NCBI GenBank assembly: GCA_948567375.1
Contig: OX419759.1
Span: forward strand, 61,656,593-61,720,592
Length of the DNA stretch: 64,000 nt
From: Lunularia cruciata
Taxonomy: Eukaryota; Streptophyta; Marchantiopsida; Lunulariales; Lunulariaceae
Reading direction: 5' to 3'
Part shown: positions 9,561-54,957 of the stretch, one piece after another
How the letters are laid out: each line of letters begins with the position of its first letter
Numbering within the stretch: position 1 is the stretch's first letter
Program-made: the position numbers and the translations under genes
Notes under the pieces: generated by a model
The model's database searches: none
The model's input: only the letters and a program-made list of their open reading frames with translations
Told to the model about the DNA's origin: nothing

Positions 9561-10452
9561 ATAGATTGTAGAAGCGCAATCATCCAAAGGTGTCACCAAC
9601 ACCAAGGGACTCACCTTTTGGGATGGCAGATTATGGATCCCAAATGTCCCAAAATTATGCTCCACCATTCTAGTGGAATGTCATGATTCAGCCATTGTAG
9701 GTCATGTCGGAGTGGACAAGACCTTGGATGCAATCTAGCGCCATTACTATTGGCCCAAGATGAGCAACGATGTGATGGACTACGTGCATAGCTGCCTACT
9801 TTTTCAATAGAACAAAGCTTCTAATCAAGCTCCTACAGGGCTCCTTCAACTTCTCCCCACTCCTACCCAACGTTGGGAACAAGTGAGTATGGATCTAGTT
9901 TGTAAATTACCCAAGACCACCTTAGTGTTTGATTCCATCATGGTCTTTGTAGACCGGCTCAACAAAATGATTCATGTATGCCCTACCACCAAGGAGGTGA
10001 CTGCTCCACAACTAGCTCAATTATACTTAGATGCAATCTTTGCTCACCATGGCTTGTCTAGAGTACTCATCACCGATAGAGGCACCCAATTCACGAGTTT
10101 GTTTTGGCAAACACTCTTTGGTTTCTTCAAAACCAAGTTGGCCATGTCCATAGCATACCACCCACAAACAGATGGCCAAACAGAGCGGGCTAATCAAACA
10201 ATTGAAGACATGTTACGTAGCTTCACCTTAGAAGAGCAAGAGAGGTGGGACACCCTACTTCCGTTGGTAGAATCCGCTTACAACAATTTGGTGAATGCAT
10301 CCACCCAAGTCACTCCGTTCTTCCTCATGTATGGTGAGCATCCCTTTACACCTTCTAGCTTGATGAAGATCCATCCAGTCAACACATTTGTTTCTAGAAT
10401 CCAACAAGGTGTGGAGAGCGCCAAGCACATATTACAGATTGTGCAAAATTGA
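9561..10452 (+). pseudogene. Element B integrase, zinc and catalytic domains
   Basis: The HHCC zinc module starts near 9676 (ECHDSAIVGHVGVDKT) and runs to CLLFQ, interrupted by stops. The catalytic core is open from 9883 to 10452, with the three acidic residues in MDLVCKLP, ITDRGTQF and GQTERANQ. The core therefore looks chemically intact although the protein as a whole is broken. It inserts the cDNA, leaving a 5-bp duplication as seen around B. Confidence 0.9.
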
Positions 10453-10944
10453 TAGAAGTAGTATGCTAATGCACATCGTAGGCACATGGAGTTCAATGTT
10501 GGGGATCAAGTGTGGCTATCGACAACCAACCTCAGATTAGTTGGACCTCGTAAGCTCAGACCTCATTTTATTGGGCCTTTCTCGATTCTTCATCGCATCG
10601 GCACTGTGGCCTATCACCTTGAGCTACCACCACACATGAAGATCCATCCAATGTTCCATGTCTCCCTACTACACAGATATGCTCCCCGATCAGGCCAGGG
10701 TCATTCCACACAAAACATTCGACCTTGTCCGACACTCATTGATGGCATAAAGGAATATGAAGTGGAGCGGATTCTCCAAAAATCCATGCATGGCACTCGC
10801 CATCCGTGGATGGAATATCTAGTACAATGGAAAGGTTACCCTCTCTATGAAGCAACCTGGGAGCCCCCTGCCAATTTGACACATGCACCGGTGTTGGTGC
10901 AAGCATTTGAGCAACAATTGCACAATGAGGATATTGCGTCTTAA
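10453..10944 (+). pseudogene. Element B integrase C-terminus with chromodomain
   Basis: The open frame at 10486-10944 holds the GPF/GPY module (HFIGPFSILHRIG and YHLELP) and then a chromodomain: YEVERILQ, MEYLVQWKGYP, ATWEPPANL, with the aromatic cage positions Y, W and W present. Chromodomains at this place define chromoviruses and help direct insertion to marked chromatin. It ends at TAA 10942-10944, next to the polypurine tract. Confidence 0.92.
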
Positions 10945-14460: not shown

Positions 14461-15890
14461 TCTACCAAAAGTAAGGTCACATTAGCCTACCAATATCTTT
14501 GGTTGTGAAGGAGGAGATTGATAAGCTCAAGGAGGTTAGATTTATCTTTGAGATGGAGAATTTAGAATGGGTGTCTCCAATTGTGATTGTGAAGAAAAGA
14601 ATGGCAAGCTTTGAGTATATGTGGATTACAAGAAGCTCACTACTATTACCAAGAAGGACTACTACCCATTACCATTCATTGATGAGATCTTGGAGGAGGT
14701 TGTAGATCATGTGAGGCATAGTTTTGGAGATGATTATAGTGGATATAACCAAATCAAGATTGCACCAAAGCATCAACAACTCATCACATTCACCACACCT
14801 TGGGAGACTTATGCTTTCAAGGTCATGCTTTTTGGGCTTTGCAATGCCCCAACTACATTCCAATGGTTCATGAACAAGGTATTTAAACCTTTCATTGGGA
14901 AATTTATGAGAGACTTCATTGATGACTTTTGTGTCTATGGGAGCAAGGAGGAGCACTTTGACCACCTAATCAAGGTCTTGCAATGCTTGGATGAGGCAAA
15001 TGCATCACTTAACCTAGAGAAGTGCATTTTTGGATGTGAAGAAGGTCTACTTTTGGGGCACATCATCTCCAAGGATGGAATAGTAGTTGATCCTAAGAAG
15101 GTGAGGAAAATCTCAGACCTTCCATTCCCTTCAAGCTTGACAAAGTTATGCTAATTCTTGGGGATGGTTGGGTACTTTAGGAGGTTCATCTTCTCATTTT
15201 CCAATAAGGCTTATGCATTGACCAACTACATGAAGAAGGGTGTAGATTACATGGTGATTTTAGAAGACAAGGAGGCTCTCAAAGTTTTTGAGGAGCTCAA
15301 GCAATCCCTTGTTGTAGCTCAAATTCTTGCTAAACCTGATTGGAGTAAGCCTTTCATCCTCTACATTGATGCTTCTAATGTAGCTATAGGATGCACTCTC
15401 AATCAATTAGACCAAGATGGGCATGATCATCCAATAGCTTATGCTAGTAAGTAGATGGTTTTAGTAGAGGAGAATTACTCTGTCATAGAGAGAGAGAAGG
15501 GTTGGCAGTGATCTTTGGTCTCAAGAAGTTTAGACACTACTTGATTGGAGGGAAAGCCACCATTGTCATAGATCACAAGGCTTTGAAGTACATCTTCAAC
15601 AAGCCTAATGTGGAAAGGAGACTAGCAAGGTGGATGATATTCTTGTTTGAGTATGACTACACCATTGAGGATAGGCCAAGGAAGAAACATGCAAATGCAG
15701 ATGTGTTATCTAGGGCCTATGATCATGATGGAGATGAACCAGTGGATGATTCCTTTGAGGATGAGGAGCTCATGACAATCACAATCACTCAAGAGGTTCC
15801 AATGGAGAACAAGGAGATTGTGAATTTTGTGACAACTATCCAGAAGGGATGCATGCTAGGGAGAAGAAGGCCCTTGTAGTAAGATCTAGA
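14461..15890 (+). pseudogene. Element A1 reverse transcriptase and RNase H (broken)
   Basis: Fingers and palm are visible at 14499-15154: DYKKLTTITKKDYYPLP, SGYNQIKIAP, FGLCNAPTTFQ and the catalytic FIDDFCVYG. The first palm Asp context reads DDYSGYNQ. The connection resumes at 15158 (GMVGYFRRF) and RNase H at about 15340-15720 with YIDASNVAIG, DHKALKYIF and ADVLSR. Stops at 15152-15154 and 15452-15454 and a frameshift break it. FIDDF instead of the chromovirus FLDDI places A1 with the non-chromodomain plant gypsy branch. Confidence 0.9.
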
Positions 15891-24733: not shown

Positions 24734-25283
24734 ACGACAACTGAGTGATCTAACCAAACATAAACCCGGGCACCCAGATCATTTAATTATGCTATTCACA
24801 TGGACCAGACTGAGAGCTCCTAGAATGGAGTTTTCCTCAACTCTAGTAACAATTCATAACACAAATCCGCTCAAGACTGATCATTCATAGGAATTTCAAC
24901 AACAAAGTTCACAAGGTTGGATAAGTCAAATAGTTCTAGTTAAGACAATGCCTGCCCTAAGGTTGCAACTGCTCATCAACTCAGCCCGGCACTTCACATA
25001 TACTCTGTCAGACAACAGACAAGGCAACTCACCCTCCGAGCCTTTTCATTCTCCTATGCCCTGTTTTGCAGATCAGATTCACTCCATTCAGACAGGCCAA
25101 CCAACTTCAAATCTTTTCTTGCCTTTGCTCCAGATGAGCTGATCCACTTTGGAATTCTCCTCCTCTTCTTCTTGACTAGCTCCTATCAATGCCTGTTCAG
25201 TCACTCTTCACAACATTTTCCCAAATTTATTTTTTTTCTTCTTCACTCCTATCCTCACCTTCGGGAGATTATCCTTTGGCAAC

Positions 25284-25650
25284 TTCTGCAGCAAATCCCC
25301 TTCAGACCTGCAAAAATTCCTCTCCAATTTTTTCCTTCATCACTCTATCCACATTTTTCCACAAAAATCTTCCTTCCTCAGTCCTGTTCTCACCTTTGTG
25401 AGAGTTCCCTTATGCAACTCATGCAGCCAACCCTTCAGACCTGCAAAAATTCCTCTCCAATTTTGTCCTTCATCACTCTATCCACATTTTTCCACAGAAA
25501 CCTTCCTTCCTTAGTCCTATTTTCACCTTCGTGAGAGTTCCCTTATGCAACTCATGTAGCCAACCCTTCAGACCTGCAAAAATTCTCTACTGCCTGAATC
25601 TCCTGTCCTCTTGCTTCCCTACAAAATTTCGTTCTCTTCAACTTCTGCCC
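25284..25650 (+). repeat. 133-bp tandem repeat in H1
   Basis: The motif TTCAGACCTGCAAAAATTC occurs at 25301, 25434 and 25567, giving a period of 133 bp. A shorter degenerate step follows at 25658. Confidence 0.85.
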
Positions 25651-25834
25651 AAACCCCTTCAAACTTGCAAAAATTCTCTACTGCCTGAATCTCCTGTCCT
25701 CTTGCTTCCCTGTGAGATTTCATTCTCTTCAACTTCTGCCCAAACCTCTCAAGCCCTAGCATCTTCTTGCAAAAATTTCCTTTCTCCCAGCCCTCTCTCT
25801 CCTGCAAAGTCCTTCACTCTCTTGAGAAGAAATT

Positions 25835-26862
25835 TTTTTTGCCTTGCACTCTCAAGCCCTAACAGTCCTCCTGCAAAAATTTTCCTTCTGTCCCATCACT
25901 TCTCTCTTGCACAAGCTCCATTTCTTTGAGAAGAAAACCCTCCCTTGCCTTGCTGTCTCAAGCCCTAGCATCTTCCTGCAAAAATTTTCCTTCTATCCCA
26001 GCACTTCTCTCCTGCACACGCTCCATTGCTTCGAGAAGAAAACCCTCCCTTGCCTTGCTGTCTCAAGCTCTAGCATCTTCTTGGGAAAATTTCCTTTCTC
26101 CTAGCCCTCTCTCTCCTGCACATGCTCCATTCCTTCGAGAAGAAAACCCTCCCTTGCCTTGCTGTCTCAAGCTCTAGCATCTTCTTGGGAAAATTTCCTT
26201 TCTCCCAGCCCTCTCTCTCCTGCAAAGTCCTTCACTCTCGCGAGAAGAAAAACTTTTTGCCTTGCACTCTCAAGCCCTAACAGTCCTCCTGCAAAAATTT
26301 TCCTTCTGTCCCAGCACTTCTCTCCTGCACATGCTCCATTTCTTCGAGAAGAAAACCCTCCCTTGCCTTGCTGTCTCAAGCCCTAGCATCTTCCTCCAAA
26401 AATTTTCCTTCTGTCCCAGCACTTCTCTCCTGCACATGCTCCATTCCTTCGAGAAGAAAACCCTCCCTTGCCTTGCTGTCTCAAGCTCTAGCATCTTCCT
26501 GTGAAAATTTCCTTTCTCCCAGCCCTCTCTCTCCTGCAAAGTCCTTCACTCTCTTGAGAAGAAAAACTTTTTGCCTTGCACTCTCAAGCCCTAACAGTCC
26601 TCTTGCAAAAATTTTCCTTCTGTCCCAGCACTTCTCTCCTGCACATGCTCCATTTCTTCGAGAAGAAAACCCTCCCTTGCCTTGCTGTCTCAAGCCCTAG
26701 CATCTTCCCGCAAAAAATTTCTTTCTCCCTGCCCTCTCTCTCCTGCAAAGTCCTTCACTCTCTTGAGCAGAAAAACTTTTTGCCTTGCACTCTCAAGCCC
26801 TAGCAGTCCTCATGCAAAAATTTTCCTTCTGTCCCAGCACTTCTCTCTTGCACATGCTCCCT
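25835..26862 (+). repeat. 105-bp tandem array with ~314-bp higher-order unit in H1
   Basis: TCCCTTGCCTTGCTGTCTC occurs at 25941, 26046, 26150, 26359, 26464 and 26673. A variant TTTTTGCCTTGCACTCTC fills the places at about 25836, 26254, 26568 and 26777. Spacing is 104-105 bp throughout, and the pattern of variants repeats every 314 bp, a small higher-order structure. Both strands contain incidental open frames here. Confidence 0.88.
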
Positions 26863-27210
26863 CCTGTCCAACTCAAAAATTCCTCTCCTGTTTGTTCCTC
26901 TGTCCAAAACCCTTCTCTTCTCAAGAATTTCTCTCCTGCCAAACCCCCTCCTGTCCAACTCAAAAATTCCTCTCCTGTTTGTTCCTCTGTCCAAAACCCT
27001 TCTCTTCTCGAGAATTTCTCTCCTACCAAACCCCTTCCTGTCCAACTCAAAAATTCCTCTCCTGTTTGTTCCTCCGTCCAAAACCCTTCTCTTCTCAAGA
27101 ATTTCTCTCCTACCAAACCCCCTCCTGTCCAACTCGAAAATTCCTCTCCTGTTTGCTCCTCTGTCCAAAGCACTTCTCTTCTCAAGAATTTCTCTCCTCT
27201 CTTGAGCTGA
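26863..27210 (+). repeat. 87-bp tandem repeat, four copies, in H1
   Basis: CCTGTCCAACTC(A/G)AAAATTCC starts at 26863, 26950, 27037 and 27124, exactly 87 bp apart. Since 87 is a multiple of three, long repetitive open frames arise on both strands (for example 26682-27230 plus, 27290-26793 minus). I do not call these genes. Confidence 0.9.
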
Positions 27211-31974: not shown

Positions 31975-32026
31975 GAGGATTCTTTGGATAGAAAACCACA
32001 GAGGTTAAGAATTAGTTTAATGCTCC

Positions 32027-34092
32027 TTGTACCAACAATGGATACACTGTGGATATGTATCAAGAGCCAATGAAGCAAAGTATTTTCAGGGCCCTAATGG
32101 TGATATTCAAACCCAAGTGCACTTTGTATGTGACAAAGAATTAGGTGGTTATCTTCCATCATATGTTTGCATGAGAGGAGGTGAATTGGGCAAAGTGTTT
32201 TCACCAATGAACAAGGCAAAGGATTGTGAATTGGAGAATGTAGTTGTTGTCATACTACTTTGTGCAGTTTGTAGCGCATTTCTACTTTGGATTGAACTTG
32301 TTGACTTTGGAAGATATTTAGAGAATGGTTTCTCACTTCCACCTAGATCTTTGTCGAGATGCGGATGCAGACAAGCAATAGTATATCAAACAAATCCAAG
32401 CAAGCAATGAACACTTTGCCAGGATGGGGCAACAAAAGATAGTGGCAACTACCATTCCGAAGACAAAGAAGCAAAATAGACCTGAAGGGGTAGTGTCACC
32501 AGTTCAGCCACACAAGACAAGAAGATTAAACCCAAGGAGTGAATCACTAGTGGACCTATCTTTGAGAGTAGAGTCTTAAGGCAAGGTTGAGTACAAGTCA
32601 AAAGATTTGGATGAAGAAGAAGAAGGAGAAGAAGAGCTCATGTTATAGAGCAAGGAGTCAAGTAGTGAGAATGAAGGAGAACCTAAAGTACAATAGGCAG
32701 TAGGTTGAGGAGGAGAATAGGGAGTTCCATGTGGCAATTGAGCATATGGAAGGAAGAGATACTCCATATTTGGAATTGCCTAAAGTGGAGATGGCTAAAG
32801 ATTAGGATGAAGAGCCAAGACTAGTGCTCTAGAGGGGAGTTAGGTCAATGAAGAGTATGCAATCTGCAACTACAAGGACAAGCCAAGCCAATGAAGGTGA
32901 AGAAAGCTCAGAGGATGTCAAGTTAACAGTGAGAAGATCACAACTTTGGGTAAGGCACCTATGGATGACTTGCTTGCCAAAGCCAAGTACAAATATAATA
33001 TAGACAAGGTGGTGGACTGCGGCAGAGTAGAGTATCAGTCAAAGATTGTGTGTCTCTTGTTCTTGCAGTTGAAGTAGAGAAGGAGGAACTGAAGAAAGAT
33101 CATTTTGAGGTGAAGGATGAGTTGCAAGTTGTGAAGTACCTAAGTGATGAAGTGCAAGTGTTAAAGTAGGAATTAACCTGAAGTGAAGAAGAAGTCAAAG
33201 AACTTTGGGTTGATGTGGTCCTATAGAGGATAATTTCAGCTAACTTGAAGGAGAGTTTGGCAAAGTGCAAGAAAGATCTTGAATGTCAAGCCAAAGAAGT
33301 GAAGAATCCAAAGGCATCATTCAGGAAATTGAAGAGAGCCTTCAATGAAACGCATTTGGAAGCCATGCACTCCAAGGCAATTGTAGTAGTGATGGACCGG
33401 GAGTTGGAGCACTTGTGGTTAAGTGCAGCTGAGAAGGATCAGGCCTGGCAACAAGAGTTGGCAAACCAAAGTCAAGAAGAAGAAAGGTTGCAAGATCTGG
33501 TGAACTGCACAGAAGCTCAGGTTGTCCATCATGTAGAGGAGAAGAAGATGTTGAAAGCAAAGTATAAAGAATAATTACAGATGTACCATGAGGAGTTGAA
33601 GGTGGAGAGAACTCATGGAAGTACATCAAAATTAGTAGTAGAGATCAGTATGAGGTTAAAGGCAATGTTCAACACTCAAACCAAAGTCAGAATGAAGGAA
33701 GCTAAACTGCACAAATTAAAATTACTTGTGCATGAGACAAGGAAGAGAAGAGCAAAGGAAGCAATATGAACAATCTCTTAATTCATCTTAGAGATAGAGT
33801 AGATAAGAAGATGGTAGAGGTAGGAGAAAATGTATGTCTTAGACTAGATTTAGTTAGATTGGAATTAGATGAACTTTGTGGTAATATAAAGGTAAGAGTG
33901 CAAGTGTCTTTGGGTGAGTTACCTCGAGAGGTTAGAGTAGACAGAGAGAATGTAGTGAGGATATCTCTGACTTCAGTTGCAATTCAAACTAAAGACGTGA
34001 TAGAAGAGATAGAAGTAGTAGATAGACCCAAAGTGCAAGACCAGATTGTAGATACATTGGGTGTAGAACCCAAAGTAGAAGTAGACATCTGA
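32027..34092 (+). pseudogene. U3-encoded coiled-coil reading frame, copy 1 (element F 5' LTR)
   Basis: Broken pieces with the same order as in the other two LTR copies. First, a segment ending in a Cys-containing hydrophobic stretch (32209 onward, SPMNKAKDCELEN, LLCAVCSAFLLWIEL). Second, an acidic Glu-rich stretch (about 32580-32760). Third, a long coiled-coil stretch rich in Lys, Glu and Leu (33245-33574). Last, the best-conserved domain 33766-34092: MNNLLIHLRDRVDKKMVEVG, followed by LRLDLVRLELDEL. No known family recognised. It lies wholly upstream of the LTR TATA box, so within U3. Confidence 0.6.
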
Positions 34093-34219
34093 TTGGATTA
34101 GTAACAATTTTTGAGATGTGAAGATGTGTGAAATGTGAACAAAATGATTTGGATTTGAGGATTTGTAAAGGAGCAGATAAAGCAATTTAGGTAGTTAGAT
34201 AACTATTGAGTGCTTTGTC

Positions 34220-34226
34220 TATTTAA
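34220..34226 (+). promoter_or_regulatory. TATA box in element F 5' LTR
   Basis: TATTTAA in the context GCTTTGTCTATTTAAGG. The same site is at 44059-44065, 45745-45751 and 54275-54281 in the other copies. Conservation at one place in four LTR copies supports a promoter. Confidence 0.65.
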
Positions 34227-34921
34227 GGAGTCATTTGTAGTGATGCATTTTTATTTAGTTCAATTAATACTTTTGAGTTGAGTTGAGTTGAGAAAAGTTG
34301 AGTAAAGCAAAGGATTGTAACTCAATCCTTGTCGTTTAAGCTTAATTTTGAGTACCAATCATGTGTGTGTGGTTGTGAGTGTTTGGAGAAGTTTGGATTG
34401 CAATCAATGAATCTTAGATGTTGGATTTTGCAGCTATGATTCCATTCTCTATGTTTGATCTTGAGTGGACAACAATCAAAGCAATGCTTTGACAAATTTG
34501 TGTGGAATTGTATGTTGGTAGTATTCTGCATTTGTGATCACAACATTGGATTGATGCAAGCAACTTTGATTGAGGAAGTTGTGCCTTTAGTGGAAGGGTG
34601 GAACACAATTCCAAGACAAAGTCAATTTGTGATGAAGTACCTTCTTTGGGAGAATTGAATAATCACAATCAAGACTGACTTGGAAAGATTGGAAGAATTG
34701 TGATTTATGGGTGTCATTATTTTGTGACAAGAATGCGAATTGAGCACTTGTTACTCTCTTTTGGGTGTGGTTTCTACCCAAGAGATCAAAGAAGCAATCA
34801 AGAGGAACTATTTGGTTATTGTTACTTTCTATTTGACCATTTTTTACTCATATCTTTATGGGAACAAACAATTACTTAGCAATTATTGCAAGATTGATCC
34901 TTGCTAAGTTGTCACATAATT

Positions 34922-34940
34922 TTGGCACTACTACTGAGGA
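34922..34940 (+). promoter_or_regulatory. Decayed primer binding site of element F (possibly tRNA-Asp type)
   Basis: TTGGCACTACTACTGAGGA lies six bases after the LTR end. Compared with the plant tRNA-Asp complement TGGCGCCGTTGCCGGGGA, 11 of 18 positions match, and all seven differences are transitions, six of them C-to-T or G-to-A, as expected from decay of methylated DNA. The tRNA identity is inference. Confidence 0.5.
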
Positions 34941-35003
34941 TACAAATCTTGGGAGTAGAAGAATACAAAGCCAAATCCTAAGTTAATTATCCAAAAAATA
35001 TGA

Positions 35004-36930
35004 ATGTCTATATCAAGAGAACAATGGGAAGAGTGTGCTTGTAGAAAAACTCTACAACATGAAGAAGAAGAACATCAAAAGAGCCAATTTACTAATGAAG
35101 AATCTGAGAAGGTGGCATTGGATCTACAACTTCTTCACAAAGTTCAAGAAGCCTTGCAAGAACTCAAACAAAAGAATGAAAAGTTGGGTGGTGAGACTAC
35201 TTTACACCTCCTCATTGCAAAAGAAAGAAATATGCAAGTGGAAAAACATATGCAGTATGACAAGCACACCAACTTCCTCAAAAACTATCAAGGGAGCCGG
35301 TTTTTTGAAAGATTTGATTTGTGATAAGACAACACAAATCTTGAATGAAGAAGAGTGTCAATACATCTTATATACAATCCCCCAAATAGTTCATTGGGAT
35401 CTTGAAGAGAAATTTGATGATATTGACCCTCTTCCTCAACCTCGGGTTGAAGTCAATGTGCCTCTAATAAAAGTACCTATTGATGAAGACCCAAATTTGA
35501 ATTTGGTACCTTGGGATCCCTTGCCTGAATCCAAAGTACAATCACTAGCCAATACCTCAGGCCAACCAAGTTCAATACCACCACAACCCTTTTATCATAC
35601 TTACAACATGTCATCTCTCTATGTTACCAAACAAGCTTACCAAAAGTATAAGAGGACTAAACATGATGAAGACCTTGATGAATTCATTGAGGAGTTTGAA
35701 GTTATCTCCTTTGCAATAAAGGAGCACAACTCTATTGATTGGTTGCATATTTTCCTAAGTCTGCTCCACAAGAAAGCAAGCAGCTGGTATACCTACATAA
35801 CTCAGAAGGGGTTCAAACTAGCAAATTGGATAGGCTTGCAAGACAACTTCTTGAAACAATTCTGGGAAGTTGATTACAATTCAAATGTATTTACAACACT
35901 CAATGATTGGATCAGAGTAAGAATGATAAGTTAAGAGACCATTCTGAGCAGTTCATGGCTTTGGTGAACCAAGTATGAAGCACTGTAGTGTGGTGGGGTA
36001 CTCCGATGCCCAAGCCATTACTTGGTTTCTTGGGGGATTTCCACCAGAGATTTCTATTTTTGCTAGGAAGAGAAATGTAACTTCCTTGGACAAAGTACTT
36101 AAGCATGTTGCCAGATATGAAGCAACTCACTCTCATTTGGCAGGTAACAAAAGAAATCAAGAGAAGAAAGGCAAGAAGCCAAGACAAAGGGCTTCTTGCA
36201 GTACCTCCCTTTCTTCAGAAGAATCCTCCACGTCCTCTACTTCTTCTTTGGAATCAAGAGAAGATGTAAAGCCAAAGAGAAACAAAAGACAAGGAGGAAA
36301 GAAGGCATTAACTACTCTAGCAAAAGGAGTCACCAAGACAAATGCTAAGCTGGAGACTCTTATAAAAGAGTTTGTGGATTTCAAGATCCAAATGATTGAG
36401 GCAAAGAATAGAAGAAAAACTCCTTCATTTGGAAGACCAAATGTATGGTGCATTGCATGTGGCAAGTTGGGTCATGCTAACACAAAGTGTTTGACAAGAA
36501 ATGCATTTCTGGTGCAACATATTGATTGTGTTCCAAGTTGGGACCAGAATGAGGACATGAGTTGGTATATCAGACTCAAGATGTATGACTTCAAGCAAGT
36601 ACATCATATCAAGGTCCAAGGTATGGACCACAAGAGTACACCAACAACTCATCCCAACAAAGAATTCCAATGGGAAACCAAAACCATCCTCAAAATGTTG
36701 CACCAAGGGCATGTTACAATTGTGGCTTGATGGGCCATTAGTCACCAAATTTCCCTAAGCCAAGATGTTAGATCAGTATGTTCCCACTTTGTGGGAACTG
36801 CAAGGGGTTTAGTCACATGGGCAACCAGTATCCATATCCACCCAACCTAGAGCTTCCGGTCAAGTATGTGCAGACTCTGGCTAAGCAAGTTGCACTTCAA
36901 GCAAAAGGTGATGCCATGATGAATTGCATT
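35004..36930 (+). pseudogene. Element F gag (broken), two zinc knuckles
   Basis: An N-terminal coiled-coil piece (35004-35324) is followed by a capsid-like segment read near 35640-35900 (KRTKHDEDLDEFIEEFEVIS and KKASSWYTYI). After frameshifts, 35975-36730 contains a Lys/Ser-rich linker and the knuckle CIACGKLGHANTKC near 36450-36490. A second knuckle-like CYNCGLMGH (36709-36735) lies out of frame, and a CGNCKGFSHMGNQ segment follows. Gag would package the RNA. Several frames and stops. Confidence 0.8.
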
Positions 36931-38215: not shown

Positions 38216-39780
38216 TTGTGGGAGTCATCAACCCTGATGAATGTCAAGATGTCATCTTGAAAGAAGACAAAATTTTGAAAATATCCAAGACAGTCACTTC
38301 TAACGAGTTGGCATGATACATTGCTTTGTTTATTGAGTATTAGGATGTATTCACTTGGTCTATTGATCAAATGTTGGGTATTCCATAGAATTGGGGAACA
38401 TTGGATTCATCTTGTTAAAGGTGTAGTTCCAGTTTGGCAATGATAGTATCATCTGAACCCAAAGTACTCACTCTTAGTGAAAGATGAAATCTGCAAGCAC
38501 TTATGGGTCAGAATACTTTTTCTAGTCTTGAGTAGTGAATGGGTATCTCCCATTATCATTGTTCCAAAGAAGAAGACGGGGAAGATTCAAGTGTGCCAAG
38601 ATTTTTGCAAACTAATGTAGTAACAAGGAAGCATCATCATCCTTTACCTTTTACAAACACAATTTTGGATCAAGTAGCAGGCCATCCTTGCTATAGTTTT
38701 CTTGATGGATTACAATCAAGTGTCCATTTGAGAAGAAGACACAAATAAAACCACATTCACTACCAATCGGGGCACATTTGCATATAATAAAATGACCTTT
38801 GGGCTATGTAATGCTCCCACTACTTTCCAATAAATGATGAATGCCATTTTTAAAGACTTTATGTGAAAGTTTCTAGAAGTCTTCATTGATGATTTTTGTG
38901 TGTTTGGCCAAAAAGATGTACACTTGGATTACTGTCACCAATTGTTTGAAAGGTGTTGTTCTGCCGGATTGTCATTGCACTTGGAGAAATGCTTCTTTGC
39001 AATGAAGGAGGGACTTCTATTGGGGCATTGGGTCTCAAGTCACGGAATTGAAGTTGACGTTGAGAGGGTAAAAGTTATCTCAACTTTGGAATCCCCTAAA
39101 AACATTTGGGAGTTGAAGCCTTCTCGGGACATGTTGGATATTACAAACACTTTGTGTCTACTTATGCGGTGCTAGCTGCACCCTTTGAGGAAGCTTCTAA
39201 AGAAGTCCAAAGACTATTTATGGGAAGCAAAATAAGAAGAAGCTTTCTAAGTATTGAAAAAGAAGCTAGTGAAAGCACCAATAATGAGGGCTTTGAATTG
39301 GGATGTCCCTATCCATGTGTATGTGGATACTTCATCGATGGAAATTAGATTAGTCATGAGTTAGAAGGACAATAAGAAGAAGAACTATCCAATCTATAAT
39401 GCAAACTAACAACTTTTAGTTGCAAAGAAGGACTACACTATGATTGAAAGAGAAGCACTCAGGATGGTATGCCTGTAAGAAGTTTCACCACTACTTGTTG
39501 GGATACAAGTTTGTATTCCATGTAGACCATTATGCATGCAATATTTGGTGAAGAAGGCAGATTTGTTTGAGCAAATTGCCAGATGGATCTTGTTGCTACA
39601 AGAATTCACATACATGATACAAGTAAGAAAGGAGCTTTGCATTCAAATGCGGACTTCCTATCCAGGTTGGAGACTCAAGACCAAGACCGGGAGGTAGATG
39701 ACCGGTTTCCTAATGAAGAATTGTATCACTTGATGGCAATGTGAAGTATGAGGTATGTGGTAAAATATCACTATTTTCAT
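38216..39780 (+). pseudogene. Element F reverse transcriptase and RNase H (broken)
   Basis: Motifs in order: a fingers start near 38540 (WVSPIIIVPKKKTG-like), FGLCNAPTTFQ near 38799, the catalytic VFIDDFCVFG near 38880-38909, then LHLEKCFFAMKEGLLLGHWV and AFSGHVGYYKHFV (39111 onward). RNase H is only faintly visible to about 39700. Stops and frame changes are frequent. Confidence 0.85.
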
Positions 39781-40830
39781 ACTTGCCAATGTCCTAAGGG
39801 ACTGGACCTAGAGTAGAGGGTAATCTTCCTTAGGAAAATAGGACCATATGAGCTAAAGCATAACATTTTGTTTAAGATGGGTGGAGACAAAGTCCTTTGA
39901 AGGTGCTTAGAAGCATAAGTAGGAGGAGTAATTGAGTCCTTACATTTAGAAGCATCTAGAGGACACTATGCCTTGAAGAACACCGCAAAGAAAACTTTGG
40001 CAATAGGGTATAGGTGGCCTACAATGTATAAGGATACTCAAGCCCATATCCAAAGTTGTGATGCCTATCAAAGAATAGGAAAGCCAATGGCTTCTTCACA
40101 ATGGCCTTTGAGACCAATTTTACCATTTTCCCTTTTGAGAAATGGGAATTGATTTTGTGGGTCCAATTCAACCAGTGACCAAGGACTCACTTTTTGAACT
40201 TGCTTATGGAAGCATTAACCAAGTACTGCCAGATAAACATCAGAAGATGACTCTTTACGACCCAAAAGCCAATGGATTAACAAAGAAGGCAAATGGATTC
40301 TTGTGTAAAATTTTGAATCAGGTGACTGTCAACTATGCTTACGATTGGGATACAAAGTTACCATCAACTTTTTGGGCATATAGAATGACAGAAAAGATCA
40401 CCACCAAGCAAACACCATATTTCTTGACATATGGATTGCATCCCATACTACCATATCGGATCCTATAAAAAGCATAAATGTCAAAGGAAGAAAGTCAAGA
40501 TCTTTGATCCATCAACTGATGTGGTTAGAGGAGAAAAGAGACAATGCAATGCAAACCACAAAGGAAATACAAGATGAGTGGAAAGTCAAGCATGATAAGC
40601 ACATTAGGCCTAATGCTAATTGGAAGAGAGACTTGGTACTATTAAATGACAATTGCTGAATATTTTTTCCAGGCAAGCTATACCTTAGGTGGATATGGCC
40701 ATACCATGTAATGCACATCTATGACAATGGCTCTATTCAACTTGTAGATTTGGAAGGAGATCCTTTTGCCACTTGCATAAACAAGTGGAGAGTCAGAAAA
40801 TATTGGATTGTGGACACAAAAGTGTAAATA
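39781..40830 (+). pseudogene. Element F integrase (broken)
   Basis: Zinc-module remnants lie near 39970-40080 (CDAYQRIGKP-like). The core begins MGIDFVGPIQP at 40142 with the first Asp kept. The second Asp region seems deleted, and the Glu region reads ANGLTKKANG (Glu replaced by Lys). The C-terminal part near 40680-40826 has RWIWPYHVMHIYDNGSIQLV and ends with TAA. No chromodomain. Confidence 0.82.
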
Positions 40831-40865: not shown

Positions 40866-40880
40866 TTGAGGGAGGGGGTT
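40866..40880 (+). promoter_or_regulatory. Polypurine tract of element F
   Basis: TTGAGGGAGGGGGTT directly before TGTGTTACCC. It sets the left edge of the 3' LTR and so places the coiled-coil frame inside the LTR. Confidence 0.75.
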
Positions 40881-41991
40881 TGTGTTACCCACATATTATT
40901 TATTATTTTGAGTTTTCAAGAAGAAGTGCAAATTTGAAGCCAAATTGAAGCAAGATGGCAAAGAAAGGAGAAGAATCATGTGTTTGGGTCAAACATGAAG
41001 AAGTCTACTTTGTGTTAGAGGAAGAAGAACTCAGATCAGACTTGATAGGTGTTATAAACAAAGGAAGGGGAAAAAGGCGACCGCGTAGGAAAAATGAAGG
41101 ATGGGAAGGAACAAACAAAGGAAGGGTACTTCACCTTGGGATAATCAATCCGATGCAAAGAATTTGTAACAACTTTCCTTTGGGTCAAACTAGTCAAGAA
41201 GGTACAATCAAGAAAAAGGTTGATTTGTGAGCGAGATAAAATTGAAAGTGACGGAGCAATGCATGTAGAAGGCTTGAGTGTCAAGTGAAGATCAACTAAA
41301 GAATGACCACCAAGTATAATGCTATAAGGTTAAGAATTTGTCAAGGAATTTCCAGAATGTCAAGAAGATATCCTATTCCTCTCAATAGTTGTCCCAAAGG
41401 AATCAAAATTATGGGGCCAAACAAGAGTTTTATTTTCCAAAGACCGGAGGGAGTTAGAATCACTTGTCCATGTGAGGGGATAATTTCCCAACAAACTAGA
41501 ATTTGCAAGCGCACAATGCCAATGAAGGGAGGTAGGAAGTCTCCTTCTCTCATAGTGAAAAATCAATTGGAGGTTGGATGTAATGGCAAGGATCAAAGTC
41601 TTAGTAGACTTTGGATCACTTTCCTGGCCTAGAATTGGAACTTGAATTTTCTAGGGTTTATGGCAGAGATAACTACTAGTAATTTTGAAGAGGGTCCCAA
41701 AGCGGAGGGGAAGAGAGGCAATCCTGATTGATGGACAGGGTCAGATTGGAGATTAGTCTTGGGAAAGGAAGTTGGGGATGCGGCCGGGATCACCTTCTAC
41801 CAAAAGGGAGATTCTTTGGAGGAAACCATAGAGGTTAAGAATTCTTCAATGCTCCTCACACCAACAATGGATACAAGGTGGATATGTATCGGACCAATGA
41901 GGCAAAGTATCATCGGGGCCTTGATGGCAATGTACATGACAAATAATCAGGTGGTATTCTTCCCTCAGATGTCTATATGAGATAAGGTGAA

Positions 41992-43930
41992 TTGGGCAAA
42001 GTGTTTTCACCAATGAACAAGGCAAATGATTGTGAAATGGAGAATGCAAGTGCCACCACACTACTTTGTGTAGTTTGCAGTATATTTCTACTTAGGATTG
42101 AACTTGCTGACTTAGGAGGAGAAATAAATAATGGTTTCTCACTTCCACCCAAATCTATGTCAAGATGCAAGATGAAGATGAGCAATAGTATATCAGACAA
42201 ATCTGAGCGGGTGATGAACACTTTGACAAAATGGAGCAACAAAAGATAGTGGTAATTACCATTCTGAAGATGAAGAACCAAAATAGACCTAAAGAGGTAG
42301 TGTCATTAGCTCAGCCACATAAGAGAAGAAGATTAAACCCCAAGGAGTGAATTAGTGATGGACTTGTCTTTGAGAGTAGAGTTTGAAGGCAAGGCCAAGT
42401 ACAAGTCAGAAGATTTGGATGATGAAGAAGAAGAAGAGCTCATTTTGCAGAGCAAGGAATCAAGCAATGAGAATGAAGGAGAACCCAAAGTCCAACAGTC
42501 AGTTGAAGAAGTGGTTGAGGAGGAGGATTGGGAGTTCCATGAGGCCATTGAGCATATGGAAGGAGGAAATACTCCATATTTGGAATTGTCTGAAGTGGAG
42601 ATGGCCAAAGATCAGGATGAAGAGCCAAGGCTGGTGTTCCATAGGGGAGTTAGGCTGAAGAGGAGTATGTAGTCTGCAACTGCAAAGACAAGCCGATCGA
42701 ATGAAGGTGAAGAAAGCTTGGAGGATGTTAAGTTAACAGTGAGAAGATCATGACTTTGGGGTAAGGTGCATATGTATTACTTGCCTGCCAAGGCTGATTA
42801 CAAAGATTATGAAGATGAGGTGGTGGAGTGCAGCAGAGTAGAGTATCTTTCAAAGATTGTGTGCCTCTTGTTGTTGCAATTGAAGTAGAAGAAGGAGGAA
42901 CGGAAGAAAGATCAGCAAGAGGTGAAGGATGAGTTGCAAGTTATGAAGTACCTAAGCGATGAAGTGCATGTGTTAAAGCAAGAGTAACCCAAAGAGAAGA
43001 AGAAGTTAAAGAACTTCAGGTTGATGTGGTACTACATAGGAAGATTTCAACTAACTTGCAAAAGAGTTTGGGAAAGCATGGGGAAGATCTTGGATGTCGA
43101 GCCAAAGAAGTGAAGAACCACAAGGCAACGTTCAAGAAATTGAAGAGAGACTTTAATGAAATGCATCTGGAAGCCATGCACTCCAAGGTGATTGCATTAG
43201 TGATGGAGTAGGAGTTGGAGCGCTTGGAATTAAGTGTATTTGAGAAGGATCAGGCCTGGCAACATGAGTTAGCAAGCCAAAGTCAAGAAGAAGAAAGGTT
43301 GCAAGATTTGGTGAAATGTGCAGAAGCTCAAATTATCCATCATGTAGAGGAGAAGAAGATGTTGAAGGCATAGTATGAAGAAGAATTACATATGTATTGT
43401 GAGGAGTTGAAGGTGGAGAGAACTCATGGAAGTACATCTAAACCAATAGTAGAGATCATTGTGAGGTCAAAAGTGATGTTCAACATTAAAGCAAAAGTTA
43501 GAATGGAGGAAGCTTGACTGCATGAATTCAAATTACTTGTGCAATAGACAAGGAAGAGAAGAGCAAAGGAAGCAGATTTATGAACAATCTCTTAATTCAT
43601 CTTAGAGATAGAGTAGATAGGAAGATGGTAGAGGTAGGAGACAATGTATGTCTCGGACTAGATTTAGTTAGACTCAAATTAGATGAACTTTGTGATAGTG
43701 TAAAGTTAGGAACCCAAGGCAAGGTAATTGATATAGGAGTGCAAGTGCCTTTGGGTGAGTTACCTAAAGAGGTTAGAGTAGAGAGAGAATGTAGTTAGGA
43801 TATCCATGACTTCAATTGTAGTTCAGACAGAAGATGTCATAGAAAAGATAGAAGTTTTAGATAGAGCCAAAGTGCAAGACCAAATTGTAAATACATTGGG
43901 TATAGAAGCCAAAGTAGATGTAGATATTGG
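41992..43930 (+). pseudogene. U3-encoded coiled-coil reading frame, copy 2 (element F 3' LTR)
   Basis: Open pieces: 41992-42249 (SPMNKANDCEMEN, TTLLCVVCSIFLLRIEL), 42355-42672 (acidic, EEEEELILQSKESS, then EEDWEFHEAIEHMEG), 43026-43211 (coiled coil, KATFKKLKRDFNEMHLEAMH) and 43580-43798 (MNNLLIHLRDRVDRKMVEVG). The same segments in the same order occur in the solo LTR and the 5' LTR. I recognise no family. It resembles a filament-like or scaffold protein more than an enzyme. Because it sits in U3, it would be on the 3' end of the genomic RNA. Confidence 0.6.
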
Positions 43931-44058
43931 ATCAGATTAGTAACAATTTTTGAGATGTGAAGAGGTGTGAAATGTAAAAAAAATGATTTGGATTTGAAGA
44001 TTTGTAAAATAGCAATTGAAGTAGTTTAGGTAGCTAGATAACTATTGAGTGCTTTGCC

Positions 44059-44065
44059 TATTTAA
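44059..44065 (+). promoter_or_regulatory. TATA box in element F 3' LTR
   Basis: TATTTAA, same context as at 34220. Confidence 0.65.
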
Positions 44066-44751
44066 GGGGACATTTGTATTGATGTATTTTTATTCAGTTC
44101 AATTTAGTATTCATATTTTTGAAGTTGAGTAAAGCAAGGTACTATAGCTCAGTTCTCATCATTTAAGCTTAATTCTAAGTATCAATCATGTGTGTGTGGT
44201 TGTGACTGTATGTTTGGAGAAGTTAAATTCCAATTAGTGAATGTTAGATGTTGGATTCTGTAGCTTTGATTCCATTCTTTATGTTTGATCCTGACTGGAT
44301 AGAAATCAAAGCAATGTGTTGAAAAATCTGTGAGGAATTGTAGTGTTGGTCATATTTTGCATTTGTGATCACAACATTGGATTGATGCAAAACAACTTTG
44401 ATTGAGGAAGTTGTGCCTTCAATGGAAGAGTGGAACACAATTCCAAGGCAAAGTCACTTTGTGGTGAAGTAGCCTTCTTTGGGAGAACTGAATCATCACA
44501 ATCAAGATTGAATTGGAAAGATTTGGAAGAATTGTGATTTATGGGTATCATTATTTTGTGACAAGACTACAAATTGAGCCCTTGTTACTCTCTTTTGGAT
44601 GTGGTTTCTACCCAAGAGATTAAAGAAGCAATCAAGAAGAACTATTTGGTTGCTATTTACTTCATATTTGACCATTTCTGACTTGTAACTCTAAGGGAAC
44701 AAATGATTACTTAGCAATTACTACAAAAGTGATACTTGCTGAATTGTCACA

Positions 44752-46415
44752 AAGGCATTCAAGAAATTGAAGAAGAATTTTGATTACACCCTGAATGAAT
44801 TAATTCAATATAGAATGCAAATCCAAATGCAAAAGCAATCAATAAAAGAGCTAAGGCAAGTAGTGGCTAACAAGAATCAAGCTTGGGAGAGGGAGCTTGC
44901 AAATAATACAAGAAAAGAGAAATGTTTGTATGATTTGATGAAGCATGCCAAAGCCCAAGTTGCTCATGAGGAAGTGGAGAGAAAAAAGATGGAGGTGAAG
45001 CATGTTGAGGGGTTGCAGCTACTTTGTATGAAGTAAGAGGAGGAGGTGATCCAAGGCAAGTCATTCTTAGCAAATGAGGGTATAGGTGCAATTAGTGAGG
45101 TTTCTACTTAATTGAAGGCAATACTCAATACTAACATTGAGGTGAAGTTAGAAGAAGCCTACCTATAGGAGCTCAAGTTGGTAATGTATGAAACTCAAAG
45201 GAGAAAGTTAATGGATGTAGATCTGAATACTTTATTAATTAGCCTTAGAGATAGAGTAGATAGGAAGATGATCAACGTAGGAGATAACATATGCTTAGAC
45301 TAGATTTAGTTAATACCTTTGTAGACAATCACACTTGTACTCTGTGTGAAAGTAGAGTTATACAATTAAAAGCACTCAAGATTGGAGCGCATGTGACTTT
45401 AGATGAGTCACTCAAGATTGGAGTGTAGGTGACTTTAGATGAGTCACTCAAGTTGCTCAAACTAGTTAGGATGGAGGAGGTGGAGATAGATAGGACACTT
45501 ATGACTTCAATTTTACTATAGACTGGTGAAGAAGAAATATTAGTAGAAGTAGTGGATGAACCCAAAGTGAGGAAACCCTTGTAGTGGATTTGGGTGAAGA
45601 ATCCAAAGTTGAGGCAGCACTTGGATTGGATTAGACTCAAGAGTAGTCACAAATCCAAAGTGGTGGGATGATGCTTTGTATCTAGAGATTTGTAGAAATT
45701 AGTCAAGTAGTTTAGACAGATTTATAATTACCAAGTGGTCTACCTATTTAAAGTTGCTATCCACAATATTATGTATTCAGTAATTGAATCAAAGAGTGAG
45801 TAAAGCAAAGTGTTGAACCAGTACTTGCTGTTTTGCTTAATTCTGAGTATCAATCAATTGTCTACTTTTGTGAGTGTGTAAAGAATTTTGAATTGGAGTT
45901 TGGAGTTTTTAGATGCTGGATTCTACAGCTTTAAATTTCCCTCTATGTGTTTGATGTTGAGTGGAACGCATCTGAAGCAATGCCTTGATGGATCTATGAT
46001 AATTGTAGCGTTGGTAGTATTTGTCATTTGTGTTTGCAAGCAAGAGACTAATGTGAAGTCATTTTAGAACAGGAAGTTGCACCTTCAATTGAAAGGTGGC
46101 ATGCAATTCCATAGAAAAGTCACTTTGTGGTAAAATAGCCTTCTTTGTATCAACAAAATCATCACAATTATGATAAATTTGGAATAGAATTGAAGAATTG
46201 TGATTTGGAGTGACATTTAATTGTGGCAAGACTATTGTTGAGCATTTGCTACTCTCTTCTAGGTGTGGTTTCAACCCAAGAGGCTAAATACATAACCAAG
46301 AAGAACTGTATTGTTACCTTTTACTTTGTATTTCACCATTCTTGACTTGTATCTCATTAGGAACAAACAATTACTCACATATCACTACAAAAGTGATACT
46401 TGTTGGGTTGTCACA
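44752..46415 (+). repeat. Partial F-type LTR following the 3' LTR
   Basis: It begins abruptly at AAGGCATTCAAGAAATTGAAG, which matches the middle of the full LTR (about 43124), and runs to TTGTCACA at 46415. It contains a coiled-coil frame piece at 44767-45036 and a TATA box at 45745-45751. It is quite diverged from the neighbouring LTR, so it is not a recent duplicate. Confidence 0.78.
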
Positions 46416-51311: not shown

Positions 51312-52129
51312 TATGGTACCCACATTTTTCATTTTCTTATGTTTTGGATGAGTCTCAAGTAGAAGTGTATTGTTAAAGCCAAAGTAAGGTTTTAATGAAG
51401 AAGAAAGGAGAACCAACATGTTTGAGGGGGTGGAACCCAAAGAAGTCAACTTTGGGTCAGAGAGAGAAGGACTCGGGTTGAACTTATAGGAAGATAAACT
51501 TCAAAGGACCAAGGACTTTGCATTGGGGAAAATCAAACTGATCCAAAGTAACCATAACAAATTTTCTTTGGAACACAAAGATCAAGAAGGTACCATTAAA
51601 GAGGGAAAATGTCTATATCAAGAGGGAACAAACACACAAAATTAGTGAAAAGAGATTTAAAATGACTAAAGAATGACTGCACAATGGAGCATTATAAAAA
51701 TGAGACATTGTCAAGGAAAAAAATGAAATGAGAAGACAATGTCCAATTCCTATTAGCAGTTACTCCAAATAAATGCAAAGCACAAGGCCAACAAAGAGTG
51801 TAGTTTTCCAGCACCTTGAAGGAGTTAGGATTTAGGCAATGGGGAGGGTTCAAAACCAAGAGCTAGAAAGCACACCATGGCACCAAGGGGGAGCAAGCAA
51901 AGTTCCTCACTGTCAATGAGGAGTTTGGCAATCCAAAGGTTAGATATTGTAGCCAGAATAGAAGTATTGAGTAGACTTTGGATAACCTTCCTAGCCTAGA
52001 ATTGGAACTTGAGTTTTTCGTGTTTCATGGCCAAGATAGCCACCAATAATTGTGAGGACAGAGTCAGATTGGAGATTAGTTGTGAGAAGGGAAGCCGGGG
52101 ATGAGAGTAGAGTGACATTCTACCGCAAG

Positions 52130-54170
52130 GGAGACACGATAAAAGAAATTGAAGAGGTGTGTAATTCCTTCAATGTTTTGCAGACCAAGAATGGCTACAA
52201 GGTGGACACATATAGGGACCTGATAAGATGAAGTATTGTTGGGGCCCTAATGCCCATGTTCAAGCATAAGTGGATGGCTTACATCACCAAGAACCAAGCG
52301 GTCTCTTCCACCAGATGTTTGCAAGGGAGAATGTGAATTGCGTAAAGTGCATTCACCAGCGGATGAGGCAGATGATCTTCAACTAAAGAATAAAATTGCC
52401 ACCACACTACTTCGTACTGTTTGCTACACATTTCTACCTCAAGTTAAATTTGTTGACATCAGAGGAGAAGCAAAAGATGGTGTCTCACTTTCACCCAGAC
52501 TTGTGTAGAGAGGCGGATGCCAATGAGCAATAGTACATTTAGCAGATTCAAGCGAGTGATGAGCACTTTGGAAGAATAGGACAGCAACAGAAAGTTGATA
52601 TATCTTTTTTGAAGACCAAGAAGAGGAGTTGACCCAAGGAAATGGTGTCACCAGTTCAGCCAAGAAAAACAAGAAGAGTCAACCAAAGGCATGAAGTAGT
52701 GATTCATGATATGTTGTCAGGAGTAGAGTTAGAGGGAGAAGTTGAGTCAAAGTCAAAAGACTCAAAGAAAGAAGAAGAAAAAAAGCTCATGCTGCAAAAC
52801 GGAGAATTAAGCAGTGAGAGTGATGATGAACCCAAAGTACTGCAGCTGGTAAAAGAAATGGCTGAGGAAGAGGATCAGGAATTTCATGCAGCAATTGAAT
52901 GTATGGAAGGAGAAATGCCTATCTAGAGTCACCATCAATGGCATTAAAAGATTGTGTAGAGGAGGAGTTTAGGTTGGGAAGGCCAAGTCCAGTAAGGGAA
53001 GAAGAAGAGAGCTTGGATGATCCCAGGTAAGAAGATCCCAACTAGGAGGAAAGGCACTGGCCAAAGATATCACTGCCAAAAAAGGGTACAAAGATTGTGA
53101 AGAAGAAGAGCTCAATGGGGTGGCATACTTGAAGAAGATTGTATGTTCCTTGTTGGTGCAGTTGGAGCAGACCAGAAAGGAGTTGATGAATCAAGGAGTG
53201 AAGAATAAGTTGCAGGTGGTGAAGTATCTATAGGAAGAAATTATGTAGCTAAGATCCAGTTTGACTTGAAGAGAGGAGGAAGCCAAAGAACTTTGGGTGG
53301 ATGTAGTGCTCTAGAAGAAGAATTTTTCAAATTTTGAGGAGAGTTTTGAGACACAAGGAGCTTGAGCAGCAGAAAGCAGAAGTGAAGGAGCTGTCATTGC
53401 AAAGCTGATGGAGGAGGTGAAGAGTGCAAGACTAGAGGTAACACAATTGAAAGTGGTGGTAATTGTGCTGGAGCAAGAGGGGGAGAACTTGAGGAGAGTT
53501 GTAGTGCAAAAGGATGAAGCCTAACAGCAAGAGTTAATAGGCCAACATCGCAAGGAGGAGAGACTACAAGGATTGGCTCATAATGTAGAAGCTCAGTTGA
53601 GTCAATATGTGGAAGAGAAGGAAGCGTTGAAAGCTGAATTTGAAGATGAGCTGGAACATGTATCAGAATGAGTTGGAATCAGAGTGAAGGCAAAGTTAGC
53701 TCAAGCAAGTACATCAGAGATAGTTGAAGATTTTATTGTAAAGGTGAAACTTTGAGTGTTAAAGCCTAAATGGAGATAGAGGAGGCATGGTTGCATAAGT
53801 TGAAACTGTTAGTGCAAGAGACAAGGAAGAGAAGTGCAAGGAACACGAATATGAACAATCTCTTGATTTGCTTGAGAGATAAAGTAGATAAGAAGATGGC
53901 AGAAGTAGGAGATAATTTTTGTCTTAGATTAGATTTAGTTAGGCGTGAGTTAGATGAGCTTTAGAATAGTGTAAAGAAAGATATCGGAAGTAGGAGTACA
54001 TGTGTCTTCAAGTGAGTTACTTGAGACCTTAGTTAGGATTGAGGATAGGATAGAAAGAGAAGAAAGAATATATCATAACGGTAGATGAACCTAAAGAAGG
54101 ACAACTGATATGAGGAACATTGGGTATAGAAGCCAAAATAGAAGTAGAGATCGGATTGGATTCATAACTG
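52130..54170 (+). pseudogene. U3-encoded coiled-coil reading frame, copy 3 (solo LTR)
   Basis: The pieces follow the order of the other copies: SPADEADDLQLKN near 52358, then 52642-52926 (MVSPVQPRKTRRVNQ, KKEEEKKLMLQNGELSSESD, EEDQEFHAAIECMEG), a coiled-coil stretch near 53100-53650, and 53770-53964 (MNNLLICLRDKVDKKMAEVG). It is diverged from copies 1 and 2, yet the acidic and MNNLL segments stay recognisable. Confidence 0.58.
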
Positions 54171-54274
54171 ATTTAAGATAGGAATCTACAGATATGAAGA
54201 AGTGGGTTGCCATTTTGGATCTGGAGATTGCTAGGAAGCAATTTAAGTAGTTAGATAACTGCCAATGCTTTGCT

Positions 54275-54281
54275 TATTTAA
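54275..54281 (+). promoter_or_regulatory. TATA box in solo F-type LTR
   Basis: TATTTAA in the context TTTGCTTATTTAAAGGAG. Confidence 0.6.
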
Positions 54282-54957
54282 AGGAGACATTGGCAATGAT
54301 TTTTTTTGTTTAGTTCAATTCAGTAATGTTATTCTGAAGTTGAGTAAAGCAAAGTGCTATTACTCAATGCTCATCATTTCAACTTAATTTTGAGTATCAA
54401 TCTTGTGTATGTGAGTGTATGGAGAAATTCAAAGTGTAAGTCAATGGATGTTAGATGTTGGATTCTACATCTCTGATTTGATTTTGTGGGTTTGATCTTG
54501 AGTGGATAGCAATAGGAGCAATGCATTGACAAATTTGTGAAAAATTGTAGTGTTGGTAGTATTTTGCATTTGTGAGTGTAACATTGGATTGATGCAAAGC
54601 AATTTTGATTGAAGAAGTTGTGCCTTTAGTGAACGAGTGGAACACAATTCTGGGGTGAAGTTGTTTCATGGTGAAGTAGCCTTCTTCAAAAAGAAATGAA
54701 TCATCACAATCAAGATTATTTGGAAAGATTTGAATGAATTATGATTTATGGGTGTTATGATTTGTGACAAGATTGCAAATTGAGCACTTGTTATTCTCTT
54801 TTGGGTGTGGTTTCTACTTGAGAGATTAAAGAAGAACTCAAGAAGAAATATTGATTACTATTTTACTTTGTATTTGACCATCTCTAACTCATATCTATGT
54901 GGGAACAAACTATTACTAATGGATTATTGCAAAAGTGATACTTGTTGGGTTGTCACA

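Follow-up and report, generated by a model that had tools for sequence, protein, structure and literature searches.

Long terminal repeats (LTRs) are commonly annotated as non-coding. The question raised by the 64,000-nucleotide stretch of Lunularia cruciata DNA analyzed here (the window) is whether the LTRs of one of its Gypsy retrotransposons contain a gene of their own. The 3' LTR of this element, at positions 40881-44751, holds a long broken frame, and an earlier note on the window, made from the sequence alone, had proposed that the frame lies in the unique 3' region (U3) of the LTR and was once a real gene of the element. We compared this LTR with related copies in the genome and found that differences between copies are phased by codon over most of the frame, whereas differences between the two LTRs of the same element are not. 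We conclude, with a probability of about 0.82, that the retrotransposon's own protein-coding gene sits inside U3, between the polypurine tract and the LTR TATA box.

Anatomy of the element and position of the frame

The element and the landmarks that place the frame are listed below. Copies at other loci are designated by L numbers.

31978-34916, plus strand: 5' LTR of the same element, without its first 929 bp and holding the same gene (DNA match)
34922-34943, plus strand: primer-binding-site-like stretch 3' of the 5' LTR (similar sequence past the LTRs of L002, L017 and L019)
34987-36727, plus strand: broken gag-like frames with a zinc-knuckle-like motif (read by eye), beginning just 3' of the 5' LTR
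38867-39172, plus strand: reverse transcriptase piece (PF00078, RVT_1, E 6.4e-4, under the curated cut-off)
39919-40149, plus strand: integrase piece (PF17921, Integrase_H2C2, E 1.1e-7)
40139-40465, plus strand: further integrase piece, by eye only
40868-40880, plus strand: purine tract directly 5' of the LTR, read from the sequence (similar tracts at the LTR start of L003 and L083)
40881-44751, plus strand: 3' LTR, 3871 bp, with TG..CA ends (same ends at L001, there flanked by a 5-bp duplication)
40881-41302, plus strand: U3 leader, 422 bp, no codon phasing (phase test; diversity)
41303-43940, plus strand: broken U3 gene, about 880 codons (substitution-derived frames; kept start and stop)
44058-44067, plus strand: TATA box CTATTTAAGG, 3' of the gene

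The 3' LTR begins TGTGTTACCC and ends ..GTCACA, and the purine tract GAGGGAGGGGGTT adjoins it at 40880. The TG..CA ends, the primer-site-like stretch, the purine tract and a short target duplication are those of an LTR retrotransposon, and the order of the pol pieces, reverse transcriptase then integrase, is that of Ty3/Gypsy elements (Pfam scan, with RVT_1 under its cut-off). The Pfam scan gave no gag match in the frames at 34987-36727. The stretch 40881-44751 is the 3' LTR of a Gypsy element belonging to an old family. The 5' LTR of this element is 83% identical to it and carries the same segments of the frame, as the earlier note had recognized at 32027-34092.

The copy at L001 is an LTR of 3822 bp flanked at both ends by ACATT, a 5-bp target duplication, and the frame lies between those ends. 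Because this duplication encloses the whole LTR, frame included, the LTR does not begin 3' of the frame; the purine tract and the ends of L001 bear out the LTR start at 40881, well upstream of the broken frame, that had been proposed. If the LTR did begin 3' of the frame, the gene would be an ordinary extra open reading frame (ORF) at the 3' end of the internal region, and the available part of PMC11963269 locates the extra ORFs of plant elements there. That arrangement has next to no probability, given the purine tract 5' of the frame, the presence of the frame in the 5' LTR as well, and the duplication that brackets the 3822 bp of L001.

Because the frame is located after the purine tract and before the LTR TATA box, it is in U3. 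Its position at the 3' end of the genomic RNA, also claimed earlier, follows from the same anatomy. The TATA box 3' of the frame was likewise rightly described as conserved: 49 of 65 copies retain TATTTAA. About 47 bp of the leader (41069-41115) are absent from L001, L002, L009 and L010, whose matches skip LTR bases 189-235; this is perhaps a small insertion in the window LTR.

Codon-phased differences between copies

Copies were positioned along the window 3' LTR on the basis of DNA similarity, and diversity was measured by position modulo 3. The set chosen by DNA match comprised 20 loci (L001-L020, from 74 listed matches) and the two window copies, in 27 rows. Intervals of 300 bp from 41481 to 43730 were phased at p ≤0.003, except 42081-42380 (p 0.035) and 42831-43130 (p 0.014), and these two weaker intervals are where the reference frame changes. 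The frames derived from substitutions (coordinate modulo 3) run 2, then 1, then 0, then 2, with interval 43581-43880 fitting the final frame 2 (p 0.039), and they agree with the frames of the recognizable peptides. Codon phasing was not significant in the leader or in the repeat and unique 5' regions (R/U5). A larger set, of which 86 of 98 rows were used after 12 rows of overlapping loci were dropped, gave the same picture; in it, the p value of 42081-42380 was 0.137.

Per-site differences in the DNA-chosen rows were 0.293, 0.248 and 0.393 at the first, second and third codon positions. The third-position excess stayed when transversions alone were counted (0.110, 0.099 and 0.166) and outside CG/CHG contexts (0.283, 0.238 and 0.387), and it was present for each reference base. 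These results bear on whether there is no gene at all, the phasing being an artefact of composition, of methylation decay or of choosing copies by protein similarity. The stretch is purine-rich with many stops, and codon phase can correlate with mutability. The signal nevertheless persists in DNA-chosen rows, in transversions and at non-CG/CHG sites, and same-element pairs with the same composition show no phasing (see below), so we regard an artefact as highly improbable.

The pooled ratio of nonsynonymous to synonymous substitution (dN/dS) was calculated over L001-L020, the window, L082 and L083. It was 0.28, 0.30, 0.29 and 0.35 in four of five pieces, compared to 0.56-1.17 in shifted frames; in the fifth piece the true-frame value was saturated, and the shifted frames gave 0.69 and 1.28. 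An earlier run that included protein-chosen copies had medians of 0.25 and 0.26, and 0.53 for the C-terminus. The proposal of a once real gene is thus upheld by a dN/dS of about 0.3, not near 1, and by the codon-phased differences between copies.

Differences within a same-element LTR pair postdate insertion, so that such a pair serves as an internal control. In the window pair, differences at positions 1, 2 and 3 were 103/628, 80/628 and 88/630, with no third-position excess (p 0.17 for any difference). L002 and L082, which we matched as a second pair from their strand, their distance (about 15 kb) and 85% identity over 1300 bp, had 38/238, 42/240 and 34/236, again with no third-position excess (p 0.65). 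The control consists of these two pairs, a small number, one of them paired indirectly, and within them there is no sign of selection after insertion. Because differences are phased between lineages and unphased within same-element pairs, selection acted while the element replicated. The Kimura two-parameter distance (K80) of the window pair was 0.158 over 2912 columns. At substitution rates of 7e-9 to 1.3e-8 per site per year, this corresponds to about 6-11 million years since the window element was inserted.

The pattern of substitutions indicates that past purifying selection kept the U3 gene working. The signal could in principle predate the arrival of the gene in the LTR, if a host gene or a gene of another element had been captured and was a mere passenger there. 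No Pfam or PDB match fixes the origin of the gene. However, the phasing is seen between LTR copies of one family and is absent in same-element pairs, which points to selection during copying as part of the LTR, and the stop codon is kept. A captured passenger is therefore very unlikely.

Limits of the frame, state of the copies and predicted product

The earlier note was right that the frame is broken but gave it too short a span; it extends from about ATG 41303 to TAG 43938-43940. Of 21 copies, 20 retain ATG 41303, and the N-terminal frame (phase 1) is the leading one from interval 41281-41430 on. The gene likely starts at this ATG, a position we infer, since the in-frame ATGs that follow it at 41357 and 41516 are also well kept (0.82 and 0.83). 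The stop TAG 43938-43940 is kept in 53 of 64 copies and the next TAA in 56 of 65, and TAG 43938 falls in the same phase as the C-terminal frame read in the 5' LTR.

Two other candidate frames were set aside. The ATG of a 91-aa frame at 40955 is kept (0.86 of 14 copies), yet the frame has no phasing, and it was taken as leader. A 127-aa frame in the 5' LTR (32027-32410) and its counterparts seem open in places, but the phase test puts this stretch in another frame.

Several observations weigh against a U3 gene, or against parts of our description of it. No intact copy was found among the matches listed, which are a small sample. With a 264-aa piece, 144 of the 145 listed places (from 14,716 candidates) had at least one stop, the sole exception being the query's own place; shorter stop-free pieces were common. 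At one N-terminal codon, 46% of 39 copies have a stop, and the next most common internal stop occurs in 35% of 55 copies. No significant phasing was detected in intervals starting before 41481 (40881-41630, lowest p 0.076) or from 43731 on, and the signal fades past about 43730. ATG 41303 does not stand alone, as other in-frame ATGs and the upstream one at 40955 are kept at 0.82-0.97. Codons for the pooled dN/dS were aligned by tblastn, and L082, a member of the indirectly matched control pair, came in through a protein match. There is only one clear 5-bp duplication, that of L001; at L007 a 4-bp duplication is possible, and L008 shows none. Neither Pfam nor the PDB yielded a homologue of known function, and the heptad test described below was mixed.

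The predicted product has four parts.

41303-42230, plus strand: N-terminal part, novel and aromatic-rich, with conserved aromatic stretches (phasing significant from interval 41481-41780 on)
42300-42760, plus strand: acidic middle (sequence; phase test)
42760-43570, plus strand: helix, likely a coiled coil, with a basic patch at its end (phase test; model; heptad test)
43580-43937, plus strand: conserved C-terminus (MNNLLIHLRDRVD..) (peptides of the copies; phasing fades after about 43730)

The acidic, coiled-coil and MNNLL(I)xLRDxVDxKM segments are present in the same order across copies, in agreement with what had been reported from three of them. The basic patch is kept in 59 of 78 copies, against a background of 0.026 of seven-residue stretches. 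In a single-sequence prediction of the helix piece, residues 22-108 of 109 form one helix, with a mean predicted local distance difference test score (pLDDT) of 87. In the heptad test, 28, 177 and 9 of 300 shuffles reached the observed value for three pieces. A coiled coil is the likely form of the modelled helix. The C-terminal piece gave a poor fold prediction (pLDDT 46.7).

Comparison with Pfam and structure databases had been suggested for a consensus; our Pfam scans used raw pieces of the gene. Nothing in these scans was above cut-off, and the only matches were weak ones to coils; the best of all, between the helix piece and RdfA (E 0.00099, 19.4 bits), was rejected, as it falls under the cut-off of 27. 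Profile searches of the PDB gave one match at E 0.9 and otherwise none, and no PDB relative. The 19-residue hydropathy maximum was at least 1.6 in 5/40 (N-terminal), 0/46, 1/71, 0/72 and 1/70 copies for the five pieces, which indicates that most copies lack a membrane span. Given the acidic part, the long helix, the conserved basic patch and the lack of a membrane span in most copies, our guess is that the product would be a nuclear accessory protein acting for the element, for example on transcription, silencing or RNA handling.

Expression, known systems and abundance

Genomic RNA would start at the TATA box of the 5' LTR and would carry the U3 gene once, at its 3' end past pol; reverse transcription would then copy the gene into both LTRs in each cycle. 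Translation might proceed from spliced or re-initiated genomic RNA. A different possibility is that a dedicated promoter within the 422-bp U3 leader drives the gene, like promoter P2 of sag in mouse mammary tumour virus (MMTV), so that both LTRs, and solo LTRs, could express it. Divergence of the leader does not exceed that of the frame (mean diversity 0.285 vs 0.319), the leader contains a conserved box, TAACAACTTTCCTT, and an extra promoter is described in the U3 of MMTV in the available part of PMC9412291. However, two TATA-like sites found with a simple pattern in the window leader are kept in 0/11 and 0/3 copies, and only some copies have CTATAACA at a weaker site near 41163. We consider a promoter in the leader possible but doubtful, and rank splicing or re-initiation from genomic RNA above it. 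Such a promoter would make each LTR, solo LTRs included, a self-contained gene unit that, well after loss of the remainder of the element, could still supply a trans-acting nuclear protein, which we view as unlikely.

The layout resembles that of MMTV, a betaretrovirus whose gene (sag/Naf) is inside U3 (PMC9412291, available part): the frame is within U3, 3' of the purine tract and 5' of the TATA box, and is thus in both LTRs. It differs from sag in its length of about 880 codons, in belonging to a Gypsy element and in its plant-like genome. No homology to the MMTV superantigen family was found in the Pfam hmmscan of raw pieces; no direct comparison with the MMTV protein was made.

Among plant elements, extra ORFs have been placed on either side of gag-pol within the internal region (PMC11963269), and sense ORFs downstream are called env-like (PMC7264820), as far as the available parts of these papers go. 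The U3 gene is similar to the plant Gypsy aORF-3S or env-like ORFs in its sense orientation, in lying 3' of pol and within the 3' portion of the genomic RNA, and in having no known domain. Unlike aORF-3S, which is internal and before the 3' LTR, it lies past the purine tract and within the LTR, and hence is duplicated; unlike some env-like ORFs, it has no transmembrane segment in most copies. The element is like plant non-chromovirus Gypsy elements with giant LTRs in the size of its LTRs and in having no chromodomain at the integrase end (by eye). Plant Gypsy elements are described with LTRs up to about 5 kb and with extra ORFs, and no ORF inside an LTR is mentioned in the available part of PMC6317226. 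Among open-licence papers listed in searches on LTRs, extra ORFs and liverwort genomes, no title or beginning of an abstract showed a plant LTR-resident gene. If the U3 gene is real, coding in U3, described for MMTV, would extend to plant retrotransposons. Such coding would go some way towards explaining giant LTRs and would imply that genes can reside in solo LTRs; annotation pipelines that look only between LTRs would miss such genes.

The Gypsy family is very numerous: its LTR ends number in the thousands across the genome (566 Mb, 74 contigs). Using 18 bases with at most one mismatch, we found 4825 + 4791 = 9,616 LTR 5' ends, compared to 1 + 0 for the reversed pattern; 23 bases with at most three mismatches gave 4194 + 4102 LTR 3' ends, compared to 0 + 1. 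These figures count LTR ends and not genes. When a 108-aa C-terminal piece was used in a protein search, 150 of 13,286 first-look candidates were scored. The LTR begins with a near-perfect palindrome, TGTGGTACCCACA; together with the five T that follow, it accounts for the 9,616 occurrences within one mismatch, and the window's own LTR start reads TGTGTTACCCACA. About ten family matches, some with identical match statistics, are clustered at 42.9-43.6 Mb of contig C11 (G000), which suggests a segmental duplication.

The three copies counted earlier in the window are joined by a fourth fragment, in addition to the thousands of ends elsewhere. The third copy does carry the gene segments, as stated for 52130-54170, but its designation as a solo LTR is not supported, as its 5' end was not seen.

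44760-46415 (approximate), plus strand: more diverged second LTR fragment of the family with coil, C-terminus, TATA box and R/U5 (sequence match)
51937-54957, plus strand: third LTR copy with gene segments, 5' end not seen (matches 51937-52915 and 53776-54957)

The fragment at 44760-46415 abuts the 3' LTR directly, likely a nested insertion. Elsewhere in the window, 14615-15154 encodes another Gypsy reverse transcriptase (PF00078, E 3e-18) whose FIDDFCVYG motif resembles FIDDFCVFG of the focal element, and 8093-10944 is a separate Gypsy element with an integrase frame that has a chromodomain-like end (by eye). A lectin-like frame lies at 127-1335; this frame and the types of repeats suggest a land-plant genome. 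At 25238-27198 there are arrays of imperfect tandem repeats with periods of 87-418, which show strong GC skew and contain long open frames.
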